54,525 bases of DNA from a virus. Numbering within the stretch: position 1 is the first letter of the stretch; the number at the start of each line of letters is the position of its first letter. The notes under the pieces are model-generated. The model was not told where the DNA came from. It saw only the letters and a program-made list of their open reading frames with translations, and searched no databases. A program made the translations under genes and the position numbers. Positions 3 to 43,572 of the stretch are shown piece after piece. The stretch lies in IMG/VR virus record IMGVR_UViG_3300009181_001959, positions 1-54,525 of that record. One strand, written 5' to 3'.

Positions 3-248
3 GACAATCAAATTGCAGACGTTTGGCTATTGTTTAAAGAGTACATTGACAAAAAAGAAGTTGCCGCAATAGCGGAAAAATATGTTGATCTACTTGCAGA
101 CTATGGCGTTAAAGACAAAGTATTAGAAGGTGCTCGTGGTGTGGATGCCGATTTGGATCATGCTATTGAGTATTACCTTGAAAATGACGAAGAAGAAATT
201 GTTGAAGAATACGAAGACATAGACGACGAAGAAGAAGAAGATTATTAA
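3..248 (+). CDS. Conserved acidic-tailed protein, 5' end outside the window
   Basis: The frame is open to the left edge, so the true start probably lies outside; a TTG at 30 is the first internal alternative. The visible part is helical and ends in a very acidic tail rich in E and D (about residues 60-81 of the visible part). The stop overlaps the uvsY start as TAATG, so the two are translationally coupled. I do not recognise the family. The context, directly before a recombination mediator, suggests a role in recombination or replication, but that is inference. Confidence 0.7.
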   Translation, partial: DNQIADVWLLFKEYIDKKEVAAIAEKYVDLLADYGVKDKVLEGARGVDADLDHAIEYYLENDEEEIVEEYEDIDDEEEEDY

Positions 249-700
249 TGTGGTATAACAAGATTAGTAAGGATATAAGTCATATTCCTGACGCTGTGCT
301 ACACTACGAAGCCGAGCTACAGGCAGCAAAAAGCGATGTCCGTATAACGGGAAATATTGAAAAGGCAGCTGCCAATATGCCTGGTGTTGTGGAACATAGA
401 TTTAATCAACTTCAAGAGATTGAAGCTATTCTTGAATATTTAAACATTGAATTACGACGTCTTCGTAGTCAACACTTTCGTAAGTACTTGGAAAATTACC
501 AGAGAGCTCTTACCAGCCGCGATGTTGAAAAATACGTGGATGGTGAGAGCGATGTGGTTGATTTTGAAAAAATTATCAATGAATTTGCACTACTACGAAA
601 CAAGTGGCTGGGCATTACCAAAGCATTAGATATTAAACAATGGCAGTTAAGTAACGTAATTAAACTACGTACTGCTGGCATGGAAGATGCTTCTTTATAA
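248..700 (+). CDS. uvsY: UvsY-like recombination mediator
   Basis: In T4, UvsY loads the UvsX recombinase onto gp32-coated single-stranded DNA. This 150-aa protein is a little longer than T4 UvsY (137 aa). It has the helical N-terminus and the C-terminal signature of marine T4-like UvsY proteins: a LRNKWLGITKALD segment (about residues 117-129) followed by KQWQLSNVIKLRTAGM (131-146). It starts inside the upstream stop (TAATG) and ends the same way at the next gene, so it sits in a tightly coupled operon. uvsX is not in the window. The assignment rests on remembered family pattern, not on a search. Confidence 0.8.
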   Translation: MWYNKISKDISHIPDAVLHYEAELQAAKSDVRITGNIEKAAANMPGVVEHRFNQLQEIEAILEYLNIELRRLRSQHFRKYLENYQRALTSRDVEKYVDGESDVVDFEKIINEFALLRNKWLGITKALDIKQWQLSNVIKLRTAGMEDASL

Positions 701-6802: not shown

Positions 6803-7993
6803 ATGCTGACAATAGATAATATCCTACTAACTATCGAACAACACGGTATTGATAAACTAAATTCATCAGTGCCAGTTAAAGATCGCAGAATTTTAAAGAA
6901 TTTGGTGCGCATGATTCAAATGCCTGCCTTTATTACAGAGTCTCAAGGAAGATTACTAATAAAAATTTTACAAGAAAATATGGAAGCACTGGACTTTATA
7001 GGTAGTGAACTTATACCCAGTCTTAAAAATCCCAGCTGGTCTAGAAGTTTTAAAACTGTAGAGATTGTTAAACAAATATCAATAATTAAAAATTCAGCTG
7101 GAGAGTCTTTTATAGATATTGAATGTTCGTTTAATAAGGAGATAAAAAAATCCTTAACAACTATTACTAGAAATATTGAAGGATCAGCGTCTACTGTTAC
7201 TTTAGGTAGGCGTACGAGTTTTTTACTCACTGAAAAGAATTTGTATAACATAGTAAAAGAATTTGATAAACACAACTTTGACAAGTCTGAACAAGTAATA
7301 AAATTATACAACGACGTCTGCAGTTTAGATTTATCAGGAACAAAGAACTCACTTGACATTCATAAAACAACAAATGTTAAATTAAAAAATAGATTAATTA
7401 AAAATATTGGAGTCATTGATTCAACCAATATGCTATTATTAGAAGACAGAAAAATTGAATTTCAATATAATGTTAACAGTAATTTAGACGATAGCACACT
7501 GGCAAACAAAATAGCAAAACGAACAAACACTAAAATTTTTATTAACTCATCTGAGTATACACTACTTGATGTTGCACAAGCAATTAGACAATTAAGAAAA
7601 ATGCCAGCACTATGTATTTTTGACGAGTATGATGCCGGTGCGTCAGTTAAAAATTTAAAAATAGTAAAAACAGTTGTTGATGCAGTTGATCCAACAATAA
7701 ACGTAGGTGTATATTTTAGATTCAATAATGCTGGCGACGGCGAGCAATTTAATAAACTAATCAGTGAATACAGTTTCAATAAACAATTGGACAACAATAA
7801 TAGAGTGTCAGTTATAGCAAATGGAAAAATACCTAAATTCTTTTTAAAGTCTGATTGGTATCCTAAAACAGTGATTAGTTTTTCAAATCAATTTAGAAAT
7901 AATAAAACAAGTGTGTATTGCAATAGTTGCGATTTGATAGTATACTATACTAGTTCAAAACCAATGATAGGAACCGTAGATGTCATCGTGTAA
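6803..7993 (+). CDS. Uncharacterised protein encoded next to uvsW
   Basis: 396 aa, not recognised. The first 120 residues are helical, from LLTIEQHGIDKL onward. The C-terminal third has a beta-alpha pattern with ALCIFDEYDAG near residue 270, which resembles a Walker-B/DExx strand without a visible Walker A. It ends in a small C-x2-C pair (YCNSCD). It overlaps uvsW by 14 nt, so a link to recombination or helicase work is reasonable but unproven. It has its own early-type promoter, probably giving a leaderless message. Codon use is AT-rich like the neighbouring glycan genes. Confidence 0.65.
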   Translation: MLTIDNILLTIEQHGIDKLNSSVPVKDRRILKNLVRMIQMPAFITESQGRLLIKILQENMEALDFIGSELIPSLKNPSWSRSFKTVEIVKQISIIKNSAGESFIDIECSFNKEIKKSLTTITRNIEGSASTVTLGRRTSFLLTEKNLYNIVKEFDKHNFDKSEQVIKLYNDVCSLDLSGTKNSLDIHKTTNVKLKNRLIKNIGVIDSTNMLLLEDRKIEFQYNVNSNLDDSTLANKIAKRTNTKIFINSSEYTLLDVAQAIRQLRKMPALCIFDEYDAGASVKNLKIVKTVVDAVDPTINVGVYFRFNNAGDGEQFNKLISEYSFNKQLDNNNRVSVIANGKIPKFFLKSDWYPKTVISFSNQFRNNKTSVYCNSCDLIVYYTSSKPMIGTVDVIV

Positions 7994-9449
7994 GTTAATT
8001 ATTAAAGACGAAGTTAACATCAAGCTAGAAGGTCTTGAGCTTGAGGCACGACGTAAACTGGCAAATACATTCAAATATGAAATACCCCATGCAAGGTACC
8101 ACCCAGCATTCAAGTTGGGACGTTGGGATGGCATGACCAGTTTGTTTGGTATTGGGGGCAATGGATACCTAAATCAACTAGAAAAGATTATTGAAATACT
8201 CACTAACATGGGTATTGAGATCGCTGACGTAGAAGATTTAAGACAACCTGTTAAATTAACATTTGATGAAGTAACTGAAACATATTGGGCTGATCAAGGT
8301 AAAGTATGGCCCAAAGGTCATCAACAAGAAGGTCAACCAATTATGTTGCGTGACTATCAAGTTGACGCTGTTAATATATTTTTAAAGAATCCTCAAGCGT
8401 TACAAGAGATTGCTACTGGTGCTGGTAAAACAATTACCACTGCAACACTGAGTCAACTGTGCGAACAATATGGTCGTACTATTACTATTGTGCCCAACAA
8501 AAGTCTAGTTGAACAAACAGAAGAAGATTTTATTAATGTTGGCTTAGACGTTGGTGTTTACTACGGTGATCGTAAAGATTTAAATAAAACTCACACTATA
8601 TGTACATGGCAAAGTTTAAACATACTTGAAAAGAAAAGTAAGAATCACGAGCATGATATTTTAACACTTGCAGAGTTTTTAGATGGTGTACGCACAGTTA
8701 TAGTTGACGAAGTACACATGGCTAAAGCTGAAGTGTTAAAGAACTTGCTAACTAAAAATCTCAGCAATGCATGTATTCGTTGGGGGCTTACTGGTACTGT
8801 ACCTAAAGAAGCATTTGAAAGTGAAAGCATTTTTGCAAGCATTGGACCGGTAGTGGGCGGTATTAAAGCACATGAACTACAGGAAAAGGGTGTACTAAGT
8901 AACTGTCACGTTAACGTTGTACAGATGATTGACTTACCTGAGTTTAGAGATTATCAATCAGAATTAAAATATCTTGTTACTAATGATGAACGTATGGCTT
9001 ATATTAGTAACTTGATTAAACAGATATCCAACAGTGGCAATACTCTTGTATTAGTAAACAGAATTGATTCTGGAAAATTCTTAATTAATGAATTACCAGA
9101 TGCAGTATTTGTCAGTGGTGAGGTAAAGACCAAAGATAGAAAAGACGAATATGATGAAATTAAAACAAGCACTAACAAGATTATTGTGGCGACTTACGGT
9201 GTGGCCGCTGTTGGTATTAATATCCCAAGGATTTTTAATCTGGTTCTTCTTGAGCCCGGAAAGAGCTTTGTCAGGGTTATACAAAGTATTGGGCGAGGCA
9301 TTAGACGAGCAGAGGACAAAGACTTTGTCCAAATATGGGACGTTACCAGTACGTGTAAGTTTGCCAAACGGCACCTTACAGCAAGGAAGAAATTTTACAA
9401 GGAAGCCAAATATCCATTTACATTAGATAAAGTGGATTGGCAAAAATAA
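7980..9449 (+). CDS. uvsW: UvsW-type SF2 DNA/RNA helicase
   Basis: 489 aa, close to T4 UvsW (503 aa). The N-terminal DNA-binding domain is followed by a Q-like LRDYQ (133-137). Walker A is ATGAGKT (145-151), a VDEVH box follows (about 241), then GLTGT motif III, and QSIGRGIRRAED motif VI near residue 440. T4 UvsW regresses forks, processes recombination intermediates and removes R-loops to switch off origin-dependent replication. It starts inside the preceding gene. The 9456 gene follows after 6 nt with a good Shine-Dalgarno (TAAGGA), so they share a transcript. Confidence 0.93.
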   Translation: MSSCKLIIKDEVNIKLEGLELEARRKLANTFKYEIPHARYHPAFKLGRWDGMTSLFGIGGNGYLNQLEKIIEILTNMGIEIADVEDLRQPVKLTFDEVTETYWADQGKVWPKGHQQEGQPIMLRDYQVDAVNIFLKNPQALQEIATGAGKTITTATLSQLCEQYGRTITIVPNKSLVEQTEEDFINVGLDVGVYYGDRKDLNKTHTICTWQSLNILEKKSKNHEHDILTLAEFLDGVRTVIVDEVHMAKAEVLKNLLTKNLSNACIRWGLTGTVPKEAFESESIFASIGPVVGGIKAHELQEKGVLSNCHVNVVQMIDLPEFRDYQSELKYLVTNDERMAYISNLIKQISNSGNTLVLVNRIDSGKFLINELPDAVFVSGEVKTKDRKDEYDEIKTSTNKIIVATYGVAAVGINIPRIFNLVLLEPGKSFVRVIQSIGRGIRRAEDKDFVQIWDVTSTCKFAKRHLTARKKFYKEAKYPFTLDKVDWQK

Positions 9450-18970: not shown

Positions 18971-19966
18971 ATGAGCCTTATCGCTGACACACTACTAGCC
19001 TACTTACCTCCCAAGCGAAAATACACCCCTAGTGGGTGGATTAGTTTCAATGCGCCTTGTTGTGTACACAATGGCAATAACATTGACAAGCGTATGCGTG
19101 GTGGCTTTATTGTGAATGGTGGCGATGCTGTCAGTTATCATTGCTTTAACTGTGGATTCAAAAGCAGTTGGCAACCTGGAAGATTGGTTGGACCAAAACT
19201 TAAGAATCTAATGCGTTGGCTCAGTATCCCCGACGATCTCATTAACAAAATGGTATTTGATGCCATGCGTGTTAAAGAAGATTCTGAATTGGGAAGTAAA
19301 CTACAACTGGTACCCACATTCACTCCTAGAGCATTGCCCTTAAACAGTGAACCCATTGAACATTGGTTAGAAGGCAAAGTGAACAAACATCTAATGCCCG
19401 TGTTGGAATATATCAACAGTAGAGCATTATACTTGGAAGATTATCCATTTTATTGGAGCAATGATCTAGGATTTAGAAGTAGGCTCATAGTTCCGTTTTA
19501 TCATAACAAACAAATTGTGGGTTGGACTGCCCGTAGTGTTAATGGACAGACGCCCAAGTATCTAAGTGAGCAACAGCCTGGCTATGTGTTTAACCTAGAT
19601 AGACAGCACTGGGATCGCAAGTATGTTATAGTGTGTGAAGGACCGTTTGATGCTATCAGCATTGACGGAGTGGCCTTATTGGGCAGTGAGATCAAGCAGG
19701 GTCAACACTTGCTGATCAATCAACTACAGAGACAGATCATACTGGTTCCAGACAGGGATGCCGCTGGAGAGAAGACTGTGGAACAGGCAATTGAATTTGG
19801 GTGGAGCGTGAGTTTCCCACCGTGGCCCGAAGACGTTAAAGACGTTAATGATGCTGTCAGGATCTTAGGAAGACCAGCTACACTGTGGCTAATTATTAAC
19901 TCCGCAGTACAAACAGAACTTAAAATTAAATTACAATCAAGAAACTGGTTTAGGAAAGAACAATGA
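18971..19966 (+). CDS. gp61: DNA primase (gp61 type)
   Basis: 331 aa, close to T4 gp61 (342 aa). The N-terminal Zn-binding domain has C30/C31 and CFNCG (58-62). The TOPRIM core has VCEGPFDAISID (221-232, catalytic Glu 223) and VPDRDAAGEKT (259-269, the DxD pair). It lays down RNA primers for lagging-strand synthesis and works in a complex with the gp41 helicase, whose gene overlaps by ATGA. TAAGG upstream of the ATG serves as the ribosome site. Confidence 0.9.
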   Translation: MSLIADTLLAYLPPKRKYTPSGWISFNAPCCVHNGNNIDKRMRGGFIVNGGDAVSYHCFNCGFKSSWQPGRLVGPKLKNLMRWLSIPDDLINKMVFDAMRVKEDSELGSKLQLVPTFTPRALPLNSEPIEHWLEGKVNKHLMPVLEYINSRALYLEDYPFYWSNDLGFRSRLIVPFYHNKQIVGWTARSVNGQTPKYLSEQQPGYVFNLDRQHWDRKYVIVCEGPFDAISIDGVALLGSEIKQGQHLLINQLQRQIILVPDRDAAGEKTVEQAIEFGWSVSFPPWPEDVKDVNDAVRILGRPATLWLIINSAVQTELKIKLQSRNWFRKEQ

Positions 19967-21381
19967 AACAAAATGTAGATTACGGATATGATGTACAGCG
20001 TATATATTTGGAAATGATGTTGGCAGATGCACAGACCTATGTGCGTTGCCAAAGCATCTTTGACCCCACGCTGTTTGATAGAAAGCTACAAAAGTCTGCA
20101 GAGTTTCTGCAACACTATGTAAGCGAACACAATGTATTACCCACTCCAGATATTATTAACGCAACAACTGGCAGTGACTTTAAAACAATCACGGACATGC
20201 GTGAAGAACACTTTGATTGGCTCTTGGGAGACTTTGAAACTTTTATTAGACACAAGGGTCTTGAACGTGCCATTCTTGAAAGTGCAGACTTGTTGGAGAA
20301 GGGTGAGTATGGTCCAGTAGAAGAAAAGATCAAACAGGCAGTACAAATTGGCTTACAAAAAGACATGGGCACTGATTACTTTTTGGATCCGCGGGCACGT
20401 TTGATGAGGATCAAAGATAAGAATGGACAAGTGAGTACAGGTTGGAAAAGCGTTGACGACAAACTGTTTGGCGGAATGAACAGAGGCGAGCTTAACATCT
20501 TTGCAGGCGGATCGGGAGCAGGTAAGAGTTTGTTCCTGGCCAATCTAGGCTGTAACTGGGCGTTAGCCGGACTCAATGTGATATATCTAACATTGGAACT
20601 GAGTGAAGAACTTGTTAGTATGCGTGTGGACAGTATGCTTACTGGAATCCCCACTAGAGAGATTTTTAAAAGCATTGACGATGTTGAAATGAAAGTGCGG
20701 GTGATTGGCAAGAAGAGTGGACACTTCCAAGTCAAATACATGCCCAGTGGTAAGACTGCAAACGATGTACGTGCTTACTTGAAAGAATATGAAATCAAAA
20801 TGGGACACCGGGTAGATGTGCTGTTAGTGGACTACTTGGACTTGTTGATGCCAATCTCTAAGAAGATTAGTCCAGCAGACTTGTTTATCAAGGACAAGTA
20901 TGTAAGTGAAGAACTGCGTAACCTAGCAGTGGAAAAGAACTGTGTGTTTGTCACAGCGGCACAATTGAACCGTGGTGCTGTTGAAGAAGTAGAGTTTGAT
21001 CACAGCCACATATCGGGTGGACTCTCTAAGATCCAAACTGCGGACAATGTGTTTGGTATCTTTACATCGAGAGCCATGCGTGAGCGGGGACGTTATCAAA
21101 TACAACTAATGAAAACTCGTAGCAGTAGCGGTGTTGGTATGAAGATTGATTTGGAATTTGATTTGGACAGTTTGCGTATTAGAGACTTGGATGAAAGTGA
21201 AGATGTCAACGGCGCTGCCACTAGACCAGGTAGCAGTATGTTGGACACAATCAGACAACGACAGAGCACAGTGACTCCAGCGGCATTAGAAGACGGTGTC
21301 AATGCTCCAAAGATTACGGCACAGGTTGAAAGTACAAAACTTAGACAGTTACTCAACAACATGGGATCTGATGATATATAA
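19963..21381 (+). CDS. gp41: Replicative DNA helicase (gp41, DnaB family)
   Basis: 472 aa, equal in length class to T4 gp41 (475 aa). The N-terminal helical domain is followed by a RecA-like ATPase: GWKSVDDKLFGGMNRGEL (160-177), Walker A GGSGAGKS (182-189), YLTLELSEE, Walker B DVLLVDYLDLL (about 283-293), and AAQLNRG near residue 326. The C-terminal 60 residues form a low-complexity tail that may hold the primase or loader contact. It is a hexameric 5'-3' helicase of the phage fork. Confidence 0.93.
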   Translation: MKQNVDYGYDVQRIYLEMMLADAQTYVRCQSIFDPTLFDRKLQKSAEFLQHYVSEHNVLPTPDIINATTGSDFKTITDMREEHFDWLLGDFETFIRHKGLERAILESADLLEKGEYGPVEEKIKQAVQIGLQKDMGTDYFLDPRARLMRIKDKNGQVSTGWKSVDDKLFGGMNRGELNIFAGGSGAGKSLFLANLGCNWALAGLNVIYLTLELSEELVSMRVDSMLTGIPTREIFKSIDDVEMKVRVIGKKSGHFQVKYMPSGKTANDVRAYLKEYEIKMGHRVDVLLVDYLDLLMPISKKISPADLFIKDKYVSEELRNLAVEKNCVFVTAAQLNRGAVEEVEFDHSHISGGLSKIQTADNVFGIFTSRAMRERGRYQIQLMKTRSSSGVGMKIDLEFDLDSLRIRDLDESEDVNGAATRPGSSMLDTIRQRQSTVTPAALEDGVNAPKITAQVESTKLRQLLNNMGSDDI

Positions 21382-27953: not shown

Positions 27954-28031
27954 TGGTGGGCCCCCCGTGAGTCGAACACGGCACCAATGGATTATGAGTC
28001 CACTGCTCTAACCAACATGAGCTAGGGGCCC
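27954..28031 (-). tRNA. tRNA with CAT anticodon (elongator Met or Ile2)
   Basis: Cloverleaf read from the minus strand: acceptor GGGCCCC pairs perfectly with GGGGCCC, anticodon loop CTCATAA on a GTGGA/TCCAT stem, T-arm CCGTG-TTCGACT-CACGG, and an encoded ACCA end. The CAT anticodon could read Met, or AUA if modified to lysidine; the anticodon stem lacks the three G-C pairs of an initiator. It lies in the early array after the 28039 gene. Confidence 0.9.
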
Positions 28032-28038
28032 ATTGAGT

Positions 28039-28230
28039 TTAACTGAACTCTTTAATCAACTCGTATTCACCGTCTACGGTTTCTTCGTACACTGTGACGA
28101 TTGCACTCGTTTCCTTGTGCTCTTTCTCAGCTATGGCCAGTGCTTCTTTGCGACTAGCGGTAGTGAGGACTAGTTCTTGATGTCCTGCTCCGTCCTCAGA
28201 CCAGACTTCATATTGAACCCAATTACTCAT
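28039..28230 (-). CDS. Small hypothetical protein
   Basis: 63 aa. SNWVQYEVWSEDGAGHQELV starts a beta-strand pair, followed by a helix SRKEALAIAEKEHKE and a last strand. This beta-beta-alpha-beta plan is like the small phage proteins that add post-translational tags, but no function can be claimed. It is read through from 28715, with the tRNA gene downstream. Confidence 0.7.
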   Translation of the reverse strand: MSNWVQYEVWSEDGAGHQELVLTTASRKEALAIAEKEHKETSAIVTVYEETVDGEYELIKEFS

Positions 28231-28283: not shown

Positions 28284-28655
28284 TTAGAACGGAGTGTCGT
28301 CATCCTCAGTAACTTTGGCCTTAGCCTTAACTGGCGCCTTAGCCTTGACTGGAGCCTTGGCAACTGCTTTCTTAGTTGCTGTGGGAGTTGACACTGGGTT
28401 AGTGCGGGGAGTATTGCGCTCCACGTACTCCACGATGGTGGCCTGTGCCGCAACGTCTTGGAACTCTTCTAGTGCCTTAAGGGCAATAGCTGCCTCCATC
28501 TTGCTTACGGGCTCGTCCAGCTCTGCCAAACGGATGTCTGTGTGTCCACCCTTTGTAAGTACTTTGATACGCATGATATCATTTGCAAAGCGAACCTTGT
28601 ACTCGCCCATGTGTTTAGAAATACCAACTACCTTGAAAAGTTTATCTGTAGCCAT
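28284..28655 (-). CDS. Protein with SSB-like acidic C-terminal tip
   Basis: 123 aa. Residues 1-85 form a compact domain (KLFKVVGISKHMGEYKVRFA near the start, then IMRIKVLTKGGHTDIRLAEL). A low-complexity linker rich in Lys, Ala, Pro and Val follows (about 90-115, with KAPVKAK repeats). The last six residues are DDDTPF, almost the bacterial SSB tip DDDIPF. Globular domain, flexible linker and acidic aromatic tip is the SSB layout. No OB fold can be proven by eye. Promoter at 28715. Confidence 0.72.
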   Translation of the reverse strand: MATDKLFKVVGISKHMGEYKVRFANDIMRIKVLTKGGHTDIRLAELDEPVSKMEAAIALKALEEFQDVAAQATIVEYVERNTPRTNPVSTPTATKKAVAKAPVKAKAPVKAKAKVTEDDDTPF

Positions 28656-28714
28656 TGTGTGTGCCTCTTTCTGTGTTTAAAAATAACGTTAGGAACATCC
28701 CAACGTATGCATTA

Positions 28715-28743
28715 ATTATACTACCGTTTTGGTTTGATGTCAA
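28715..28743 (-). promoter_or_regulatory. Early promoter TTGACA-17-TATAAT
   Basis: -35 at 28738-28743 and -10 at 28715-28720. Drives the 28284 and 28039 genes and probably the CAT tRNA. Confidence 0.85.
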
Positions 28744-28984: not shown

Positions 28985-29112
28985 TTCCTATTCAGGACCC
29001 ACTGTCTGATCACAGCCTCCAATGGTTGCCAGACATACTCGGGACCTTTGGGCCGCACTCGTTCCTTCTGTTTGGTATCGAACTCTTGATTCTTTTGTTT
29101 ATTTGTTTTCAT
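28981..29112 (-). CDS. Very small basic protein
   Basis: 43 aa from the ATG at 29112, which overlaps the end of the 29099 gene by 14 nt. It starts MKTNKQKNQEFDTKQKERVR and ends VWQPLEAVIRQWVLNRK. The ATGA coupling to the next gene supports it. Function unknown. Confidence 0.6.
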   Translation of the reverse strand: MKTNKQKNQEFDTKQKERVRPKGPEYVWQPLEAVIRQWVLNRK

Positions 29113-29686
29113 CTTCTTCTTCCGCCTCTTCGGCTTCATATTCGGCCATCGTTTCCGATATGCCAAACATCTCATCAAGTTCAGAAGGAATTTCTTCTGC
29201 TACTTGTTCAGATGTCATGTTACCGAGTTCGTAATAGGCATCATGCCCATCTTCGTATATGCCAGCAAAGGCCATACCTGGCTCGTAGTAATAAAGGCGC
29301 ACTGAGAAACCCAATGCTTCAAACTTGTCCATGGCCGTAGTAGGCGGAGCCCACGCACTGTCAAAACTCATCGTGATCTTGTTGGGTGTCTCCTGATGGG
29401 GTTCGTTATAGTCATCACCACCCACATCCCACTTGGTACCCCACTCGTTCACACAATAGTCATACCAGTTGCCATAGCCGTGGATTTCAATGTTACGGGC
29501 AGTGTCCTCTTCCAACTTCCTCTGCTCGTCACCGTCACCAACCCTGCCTGCCACAATATGCAGGCTCTCTGGCACTGGAGCAAACTCATTCAACAGTTTA
29601 CCATCTGCAAAGGCTTTCCTAGCCCGCTCAATCATTGCTGGGTCTTCGTGATGAAGTTCCAATGTGTTATTGCACCAATTAGGCAT
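29099..29686 (-). CDS. DUF1281 (Api92/YubB-like ferredoxin-fold) protein
   Basis: 195 aa. The opening MPNWCNNTLELHHEDP and the NWYDYCVNEWGTKWDV segment (about 83-98) are diagnostic of the DUF1281 family, found on plasmids and phages. An SFDSAWAPP segment follows and the last 20 residues are strongly acidic. Function unknown. It follows the 29696 gene by 9 nt and is read from the promoter at 29989. Confidence 0.85.
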   Translation of the reverse strand: MPNWCNNTLELHHEDPAMIERARKAFADGKLLNEFAPVPESLHIVAGRVGDGDEQRKLEEDTARNIEIHGYGNWYDYCVNEWGTKWDVGGDDYNEPHQETPNKITMSFDSAWAPPTTAMDKFEALGFSVRLYYYEPGMAFAGIYEDGHDAYYELGNMTSEQVAEEIPSELDEMFGISETMAEYEAEEAEEEDENK

Positions 29687-30904: not shown

Positions 30905-31795
30905 TTAACCACGACGCATACAAGTCATCTCTGCAATGCCAGTCCAGCGGTCAGGGAACCCTGCTTTAAGATCCGCTAGCTTGAGCACCATACGTAGGCT
31001 GAGTTCTCTCAGCTTCTTCTTGTTTTGATCGATGAAGTCCAGGATCTCTTCTTTTGCACCCGGCTCAAACTCATACTTGTCTAGCATGCCGTCTTCAACG
31101 ATCTGTTTAATGCGCAACACCTTCTCACGCTCTGTGTCAATGGTAAGGTCAAGATAGTGACAGCGTGACTCCAATGCCTCAAGGTGATCACGAAGCTTCT
31201 TGCTTCTAACGTTTTCAAATTTGATGTTGGTGATAAAGATAGCACCACCCTTGAACTCAAAGCTGTCAGGCACACCTTCGCGACGCAACATGTGTGAGTC
31301 TGTGTTCCAATGAATCATACGCTTTGACCCGCTGTCCAATGCTGCCTTGAGAATGTTAAGGCTGAGGTCATCCAACAGCACACTGTCACAGTCATCAAAC
31401 ACTAGAATGTTTTTCTTGTCACTGAAGTTGTAGAGCTTGCAATACAGGCCCAACGCACTCATTGCACCCTTGACCACTTCATACTTCTTCAGCTTGTCAT
31501 TGCCAGCGATGTCTGCCATCATGTCATGCTTGCCCAAGACCTTCTCTACACCAAAGCTCTTGCCCACACCCGGGGGGCCGGATACGATCATGGCACGTAC
31601 AGCACCCTTTTTCACAGCACGGGTCATGTCGTCCAGTATGTTGAAACGTTCACGCAAGCGACCCATGATCTGGTCATCACTCTCGTTGAGCACCTTATCA
31701 ACCTTGTCCATCTCTAGACTTTTGACTTCGCCCTTAGAGGCTCTCTTTGCTGTAGTCATCTCTGCCATCATCTCCATAGTTACAACTCTCGCCAT
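30905..31795 (-). CDS. AAA+ ATPase
   Basis: 296 aa. Walker A is SGPPGVGKS (72-80) and Walker B is NILVFDDCDSV (129-139); a sensor-1-like GAIFITNIKF lies near residue 185 and ESRCHYLDL follows. The N-terminal 60 residues are helical, and a C-terminal helical lid is visible (LRELSLRMVLKLADLKAG). It resembles small single-domain AAA+ proteins of marine phages. Possible jobs are remodelling of a replication or host complex. It is the only large enzyme of the early array, with its own promoter (31824) and a double terminator, so it is expressed as a separate unit. Confidence 0.85.
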   Translation of the reverse strand: MARVVTMEMMAEMTTAKRASKGEVKSLEMDKVDKVLNESDDQIMGRLRERFNILDDMTRAVKKGAVRAMIVSGPPGVGKSFGVEKVLGKHDMMADIAGNDKLKKYEVVKGAMSALGLYCKLYNFSDKKNILVFDDCDSVLLDDLSLNILKAALDSGSKRMIHWNTDSHMLRREGVPDSFEFKGGAIFITNIKFENVRSKKLRDHLEALESRCHYLDLTIDTEREKVLRIKQIVEDGMLDKYEFEPGAKEEILDFIDQNKKKLRELSLRMVLKLADLKAGFPDRWTGIAEMTCMRRG

Positions 31796-32533: not shown

Positions 32534-32608
32534 TGGCGCCAAGGACGGGGATCGAACCCGCCTAGGTCGGATAGACAATCCGTTGCCCTCCCAGAGGACT
32601 ACCTTGGC
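32534..32608 (-). tRNA. tRNA-Asp (GTC)
   Basis: Minus-strand cloverleaf: acceptor GCCAAGG/CCTTGGC, D-arm GTCC...GGGC, anticodon loop TTGTCTA, T-arm with TTCGATC, discriminator G and encoded CCA. The G discriminator agrees with Asp. Two oddities are an A-A mismatch at the top of the anticodon stem and a pyrimidine 3' of the anticodon. Confidence 0.85.
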
Positions 32609-43497: not shown

Positions 43498-43572
43498 TGG
43501 TCCGCCCACCAAGAATCGAACTTGGAAATCAGACTTAGAAGGTCTGTGTTATATCCATTTAACTATGGGCAG
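43498..43572 (-). tRNA. tRNA-Arg (TCT)
   Basis: Minus-strand cloverleaf: acceptor CTGCCCA/TGGGCGG, anticodon stem CAGAC/GTCTG with loop CTTCTAA, T-arm CCAAG-TTCGATT-CTTGG, discriminator A and encoded CCA. It reads AGA, a codon used often in the AT-rich genes of this window. Confidence 0.92.

Follow-up and report, generated by a model that had tools for sequence, protein, structure and literature searches.

The window, a phage record of 54.5 kb (54,525 nucleotides), encodes a 123-amino-acid protein that carries a conserved C-terminal tail like that of bacterial single-stranded DNA-binding proteins (SSB-Ct) on an unrelated domain. We propose that it is an early host-takeover protein whose tail may dock in the SSB-tail pockets of host enzymes, and give this reading, which is drawn from sequence comparison, a probability of about 0.45. 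The initial annotation had offered two possibilities, a phage SSB or a mimic that captures the partners of host SSB; for the tail, the mimic appears to be the best reading. The features concerned are collected in the table.

Table. Positions in the window of the tail protein gene, its parts, its upstream elements and selected replication and recombination genes
Feature	Position	Strand	Basis
UvsY-like gene	248-700		
DNA helicase	7980-9449		
Primase and DnaB-like helicase	18971-21381		
Whole ORF, 123 aa, ATG start, TAA stop	28284..28655	-	open frame; relatives at 66 viral loci
Residues 1-84, conserved folded domain, b-b-a-b-a-a	28404..28655	-	AF2 model and invariant columns
Residues 85-116, Lys/Ala/Pro/Val/Thr linker, predicted disordered, net charge +8	28308..28403	-	hypervariable sequence and length
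Residues 117-123, EDDDTPF, SSB-Ct-like tail	28287..28307	-	C-terminal conservation in relatives
Predicted hairpin at the mRNA 5' end, ACGTTGGGATGTTCCTAACGT	28686..28706	-	folding; pairing kept despite sequence change
Sigma-70 promoter, TTGACA-17-TATAAT, 12 of 12	28715..28743	-	promoter scan

The translation of the open reading frame is MATDKLFKVVGISKHMGEYKVRFANDIMRIKVLTKGGHTDIRLAELDEPVSKMEAAIALKALEEFQDVAAQATIVEYVERNTPRTNPVSTPTATKKAVAKAPVKAKAPVKAKAKVTEDDDTPF with the C-terminal end KVTEDDDTPF, and thus contains both the Lys/Ala/Pro linker and the DDDTPF end that had been described. Structure prediction of the domain alone with AF2 and 54 sequences yielded a pLDDT of 94 on residues 1-84 and a pTM of 0.81, in agreement with the globular domain of about 85 residues proposed earlier. 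The model elements are E7-15, E18-24, H29-35, E39-50, H52-61 and H68-81; this confident b-b-a-b-a-a arrangement has a different topology from the OB fold for which the prediction had been suggested as a check. In the full-length model residues 1-84 are confident and residues 85-121 have a pLDDT below 50. Alignment columns show K20, R22, F23, A24, R29, K31, K35, G37, H38 and K52 to be invariant, and seven of these positions are K, R or H. The linker is rich in A, K, V, T and P with a mean net charge of +6.7 over the 48 tailed members, and the tail has a charge of about -3. The succession of domain, linker and acidic-x-Pro-Phe tail known from SSB holds, but the OB fold and an SSB-like composition of the linker are absent.

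A Foldseek search against the PDB with the domain model gave no match with E below 0.6 and no SSB among the matches listed, and DdrB was absent both there and among the profile matches listed. Structure searches in BFVD gave significant E-values only for uncharacterised proteins of uncultured phages. Pfam and PHROGs searches with one member and with 55 members returned weak or scattered matches, none of them convincing, and a PDB profile search with the family returned no match. The Pfam search found no PF00436 match for the protein, gp32 (PF08804) did not match either, and PADLOC assigned no defence family. The domain is small and conserved, has many invariant basic residues and matches no SSB family. 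An identity as GIY-YIG/T5orf172/MUG113 was considered after weak Foldseek matches and inspection by eye. The likeness to GIY-YIG / UPF0213 proteins consists of the order of strands and helices and these few matches, but TM-scores are at most 0.37 at E about 1, and the candidate was rejected by search and profile-profile comparison: hhalign of the family against bacterial GIY-YIG gave a probability of 0.3% (positive control 29%), and neither a phage GIY-YIG cluster nor 72 other neighbouring clusters had profile similarity to the tail protein family.

IMG/VR scans detected relatives at 27 and then at 66 viral loci, corresponding to 56 distinct proteins of 106 to 138 amino acids. No relative was found in INPHARED records of isolated phages by tblastn with two members, or in GTDB genomes scanned with alignment-derived patterns. 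The comparison of C-terminal ends, proposed earlier as a check on the tail, bore out its conservation: an acidic residue, an acidic residue or Asn, any residue and Pro-Phe terminate 46 of the 56 proteins, and two more (L049 and L050, Pro to Ser) end in -SF. All 48 have E or D at position -5 and D, N or E at -4, the commonest tail being EDAPF, and in all of them the terminal Phe has a free carboxylate. Residue counts in the tail are F 48/48, P 46/48, A 42/48, D 43/48 and E 47/48. The remaining eight comprise six tail-free sequences, L052/L057 with two residues added after PF (DENTPFTA) and L059 with twelve added after DEDTPF, so that the Phe is buried by added residues in 2 of 50 tail-clade proteins. 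When the 48 distinct sequences are anchored at the C-terminus, each of positions -1 to -5 carries 3.6-4.3 bits and most linker positions about 2 bits. The codons for E, A and P in the tail differ synonymously among relatives. The conserved clusters of these loci comprise 1691 other ORFs, none of which ends in [DE][DEN]x[PS]F, a pattern picked after the data were seen, although the contrast is too large to hinge on this choice. When five large tail-clade records were scanned with a looser pattern, four had an EDxPF tail, only on this protein; the fifth is the record of L052, where the same protein has the tail plus two extra residues. Conservation of the tail is not due to chance, and the substitution pattern indicates that the C-terminal E-[DEN]-x-P-F is under purifying selection.

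When the tail-free members served as queries, 183 relatives were found; 80 were kept (54 distinct), and none of the 54 has the tail. In a tree of 105 rows and 84 columns, which is unrooted and short on columns, the tail falls on one branch (support 97/69, 95% of bootstrap trees). The tail-free loci belong to the same neighbourhood, with homologues of the window gene 29099-29686 in 69 of 80, and the gp32 of tail-free phages is 68-71% identical to that of a tailed phage. Because the phages of this clade closely resemble the tailed ones in background and gp32, the tail is not essential to this lifestyle. Several genes common to the tail clade were absent from two tail-free genomes, and none of these clade-specific genes was recognisable as an SSB interactor.

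Docking of SSB-Ct depends on the alpha-carboxyl group and side chain of the terminal Phe and on the acidic residues, and in E. coli SSB loss of the Phe is lethal and the change of Pro to Ser temperature-sensitive lethal (PMC3594151; PMC5872125). Like the bacterial DDDIPF end, the phage tail has a terminal Phe with free carboxylate, a preceding Pro, upstream acidic residues and a disordered linker in front. All known docking elements being present, it is reasonable to infer that the tail docks on host enzymes. The tail differs from SSB-Ct in its unrelated non-OB domain, in the usual Ala at -3 and Glu at -5, and in the linker, which is Lys-rich and positive in the phage protein and Gly/Ala/Pro-rich and near neutral in SSB. 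In the proposed mechanism the terminal Phe and the acidic residues would occupy a pocket common to host genome-maintenance enzymes, with RecQ, PriA, exonuclease I, RecO, DnaG and the chi subunit as candidate partners. The protein might block access of these enzymes to host SSB, or it might bring them to the target of its folded domain and Lys-rich linker, most likely nucleic acid. Our guess is competition with host SSB, since these phages own a T4-like primase, helicase, polymerase and gp32-type SSB and would depend less on the host. A small molecule mimicking Pro-Phe blocks binding of exonuclease I, RecQ and PriA and is antibacterial (PMC3594151), and a decoy of the tail might therefore, in principle, be harmful to the host. 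It is tentatively conceivable, a little less so than docking itself, that one lineage alone of this new phage protein family imitates the host SSB tail on a domain unrelated to SSB and uses the imitation as an early decoy diverting or disabling host SSB-dependent enzymes.

Several observations count against docking by tail mimicry. Four distinct tail-clade members (L049, L050, L052/L057 and L059) have changes expected to weaken or abolish it, position -3 is mostly Ala where likely host SSBs have Ile, the sister clade lacks the tail, and DdrB provides an unfavourable precedent. Like the phage protein, DdrB is not an SSB by fold but bears an SSB-like motif in a disordered C-terminus; in DdrB this motif is dispensable for radioresistance (PMC3834827). 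DdrB differs in being bacterial and irradiation-induced, and no match to the phage protein was found in sequence or fold.

The designation of the protein as early in the initial annotation is supported by the perfect sigma-70 promoter upstream, which is kept at 11-12 of 12 matches in 64 of the 66 relatives' loci. The promoter scan also brought up an element that had not been sought, a hairpin predicted to begin the transcript directly after the -10 box. Leaders reaching -3.5 kcal/mol or lower in the first 36 nt make up 92% of the first set and 91% of the tail-free set, compared with 33% and 22% of the respective mononucleotide shuffles, which preserve single-base but not dinucleotide content; for 1080 other strong promoters of these loci the figure is 15%. 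This threshold was set after the data were seen and the exact fractions depend on it. The stem shows compensatory pair changes, with 41 distinct arm pairs among the relatives (L001-L170). Most other early leaders lack the hairpin, and it matches no Rfam family; as a guess, it stabilises the mRNA or serves autoregulation. Based on the perfect promoter and the covarying hairpin at the 5' end, the tail protein is probably made early and abundantly. The gene lies in an early-looking region of small minus-strand genes that starts at about 22 kb. Between 22797 and 36233 (mostly -) there are more than 20 TTGACA-17-TATAAT/TATACT promoters with 11-12 of 12 matches, many with a common leader like ATAGGTTAAGTTAAACAAAAGGAGCG.

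The phages with relatives form a family of large freshwater phages. We take the phage in the window to be T4-like and the helicase at 7980-9449 to be UvsW. A gp32-like protein is present in five of six large tail-clade records, encoded by a separate gene and ending in AQDILAMIRNRQK without an SSB-type tail; PHROGs names that of the relative G001 single-strand DNA binding protein. No bacterial-type SSB (PF00436) was found in 6 tail-clade or 10 tail-free records. The linkers of the gp32-like proteins L068-L072 hold internal acidic-Pro stretches (such as EEDAPV and DDIPAP) that look like the tail but lack its terminal Phe. A phage-borne DnaK (L087, 13497-15425 of G001) matches Burkholderiales at about 70-73%, the closest among the matches listed, and this one gene of one relative weakly suggests Burkholderiales as the host of the window's phage. 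The SSBs in those Burkholderiales genomes end in DDDIPF, or EDDIPF in a Methylotenera. Compared with these likely host SSBs, which have Ile at -3, the phage tail has Ala there in 42 of 48 proteins; three likely host SSB linkers have a net charge of 0 to +3.

The tail could also serve the phage's own machinery, the protein being an accessory that docks on a phage-encoded replication, recombination or transcription partner. The T4-like set of UvsX, gp32-like SSB, polymerase, primase, helicase, UvsW-like helicase and UvsY-like genes offers potential partners of this kind, and so might the genes of the tail clade that two tail-free genomes lack. However, no recognisable SSB-tail binder is among the latter, the downstream 63-amino-acid gene occurs at only 25 of 53 loci, and the sister clade without the tail, whose gp32 is about 70% identical, should also possess any core replication partner; we regard this explanation as rather unlikely. 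In some ssDNA-binding proteins acidic tails act as intramolecular caps, and here the tail might likewise compete with DNA or RNA for a basic patch and the Lys-rich linker. The seven invariant K/R/H of the domain and the charges of linker (about +7) and tail (about -3) fit such a cap, but charge would be enough for it and an invariant C-terminal Pro-Phe would not be needed, which makes it a clearly unlikely account of a tail with F in 48 and P in 46 of 48 proteins.

That the protein is itself the phage ssDNA-binding protein, with a non-OB domain as in DdrB, agrees with its domain-linker-tail layout, its invariant basic residues and the DdrB precedent. With no OB fold, no SSB-family match of weight, no SSB, DdrB included, among the structural or profile matches listed, a wider sister clade without the tail and a separate gp32-like SSB already present in the relatives, this first suggestion of the initial annotation has become improbable. 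The clamp-binding motifs of T4-like phages (T4/RB69) are short, C-terminal and acidic with Phe at the end, and the tail resembles them; it might thus bind the sliding clamp like the C-termini of T4-type polymerase and late transcription factors. But the DNA polymerase of G001 (phrog_262, E 3e-198) ends in NTFNSFFEF with several aromatic residues and the tail of the family just one hydrophobic anchor plus Pro, so that a clamp motif is very improbable.

Bacteria recruit their DNA repair and restart enzymes mainly through the hub that SSB-tail docking provides. In the literature searched, we found no description of a phage protein that employs an SSB-type tail. If docking on host enzymes is correct, the protein would be a natural competitor of this hub, a new route of host takeover and a ready-made reagent. 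Close phages whose copies of this gene differ in the presence of the tail constitute a natural experiment.

Several neighbours of the tail protein gene were noted. Directly downstream lies the gene for the 63-amino-acid protein, which is acidic (28039-28230, -), with homologues at 25 of 53 first-set loci but at no locus of the tail-free set; elsewhere, its place is taken by a different small gene. A 195-amino-acid protein (29099-29686, -; phrog_20518) is encoded near the tail protein gene in 63 of 67 sources, and an AAA-type ATPase (30905-31795, -; phrog_1250) with weak clamp-loader similarity is conserved in 61 of 67. A tRNA-Met gene (27954-28031, -) lies just downstream of the tail protein gene and its 63-amino-acid neighbour, and genes for tRNA-Asp and tRNA-Arg are located at 32534-32608 (-) and 43498-43572 (-), respectively.
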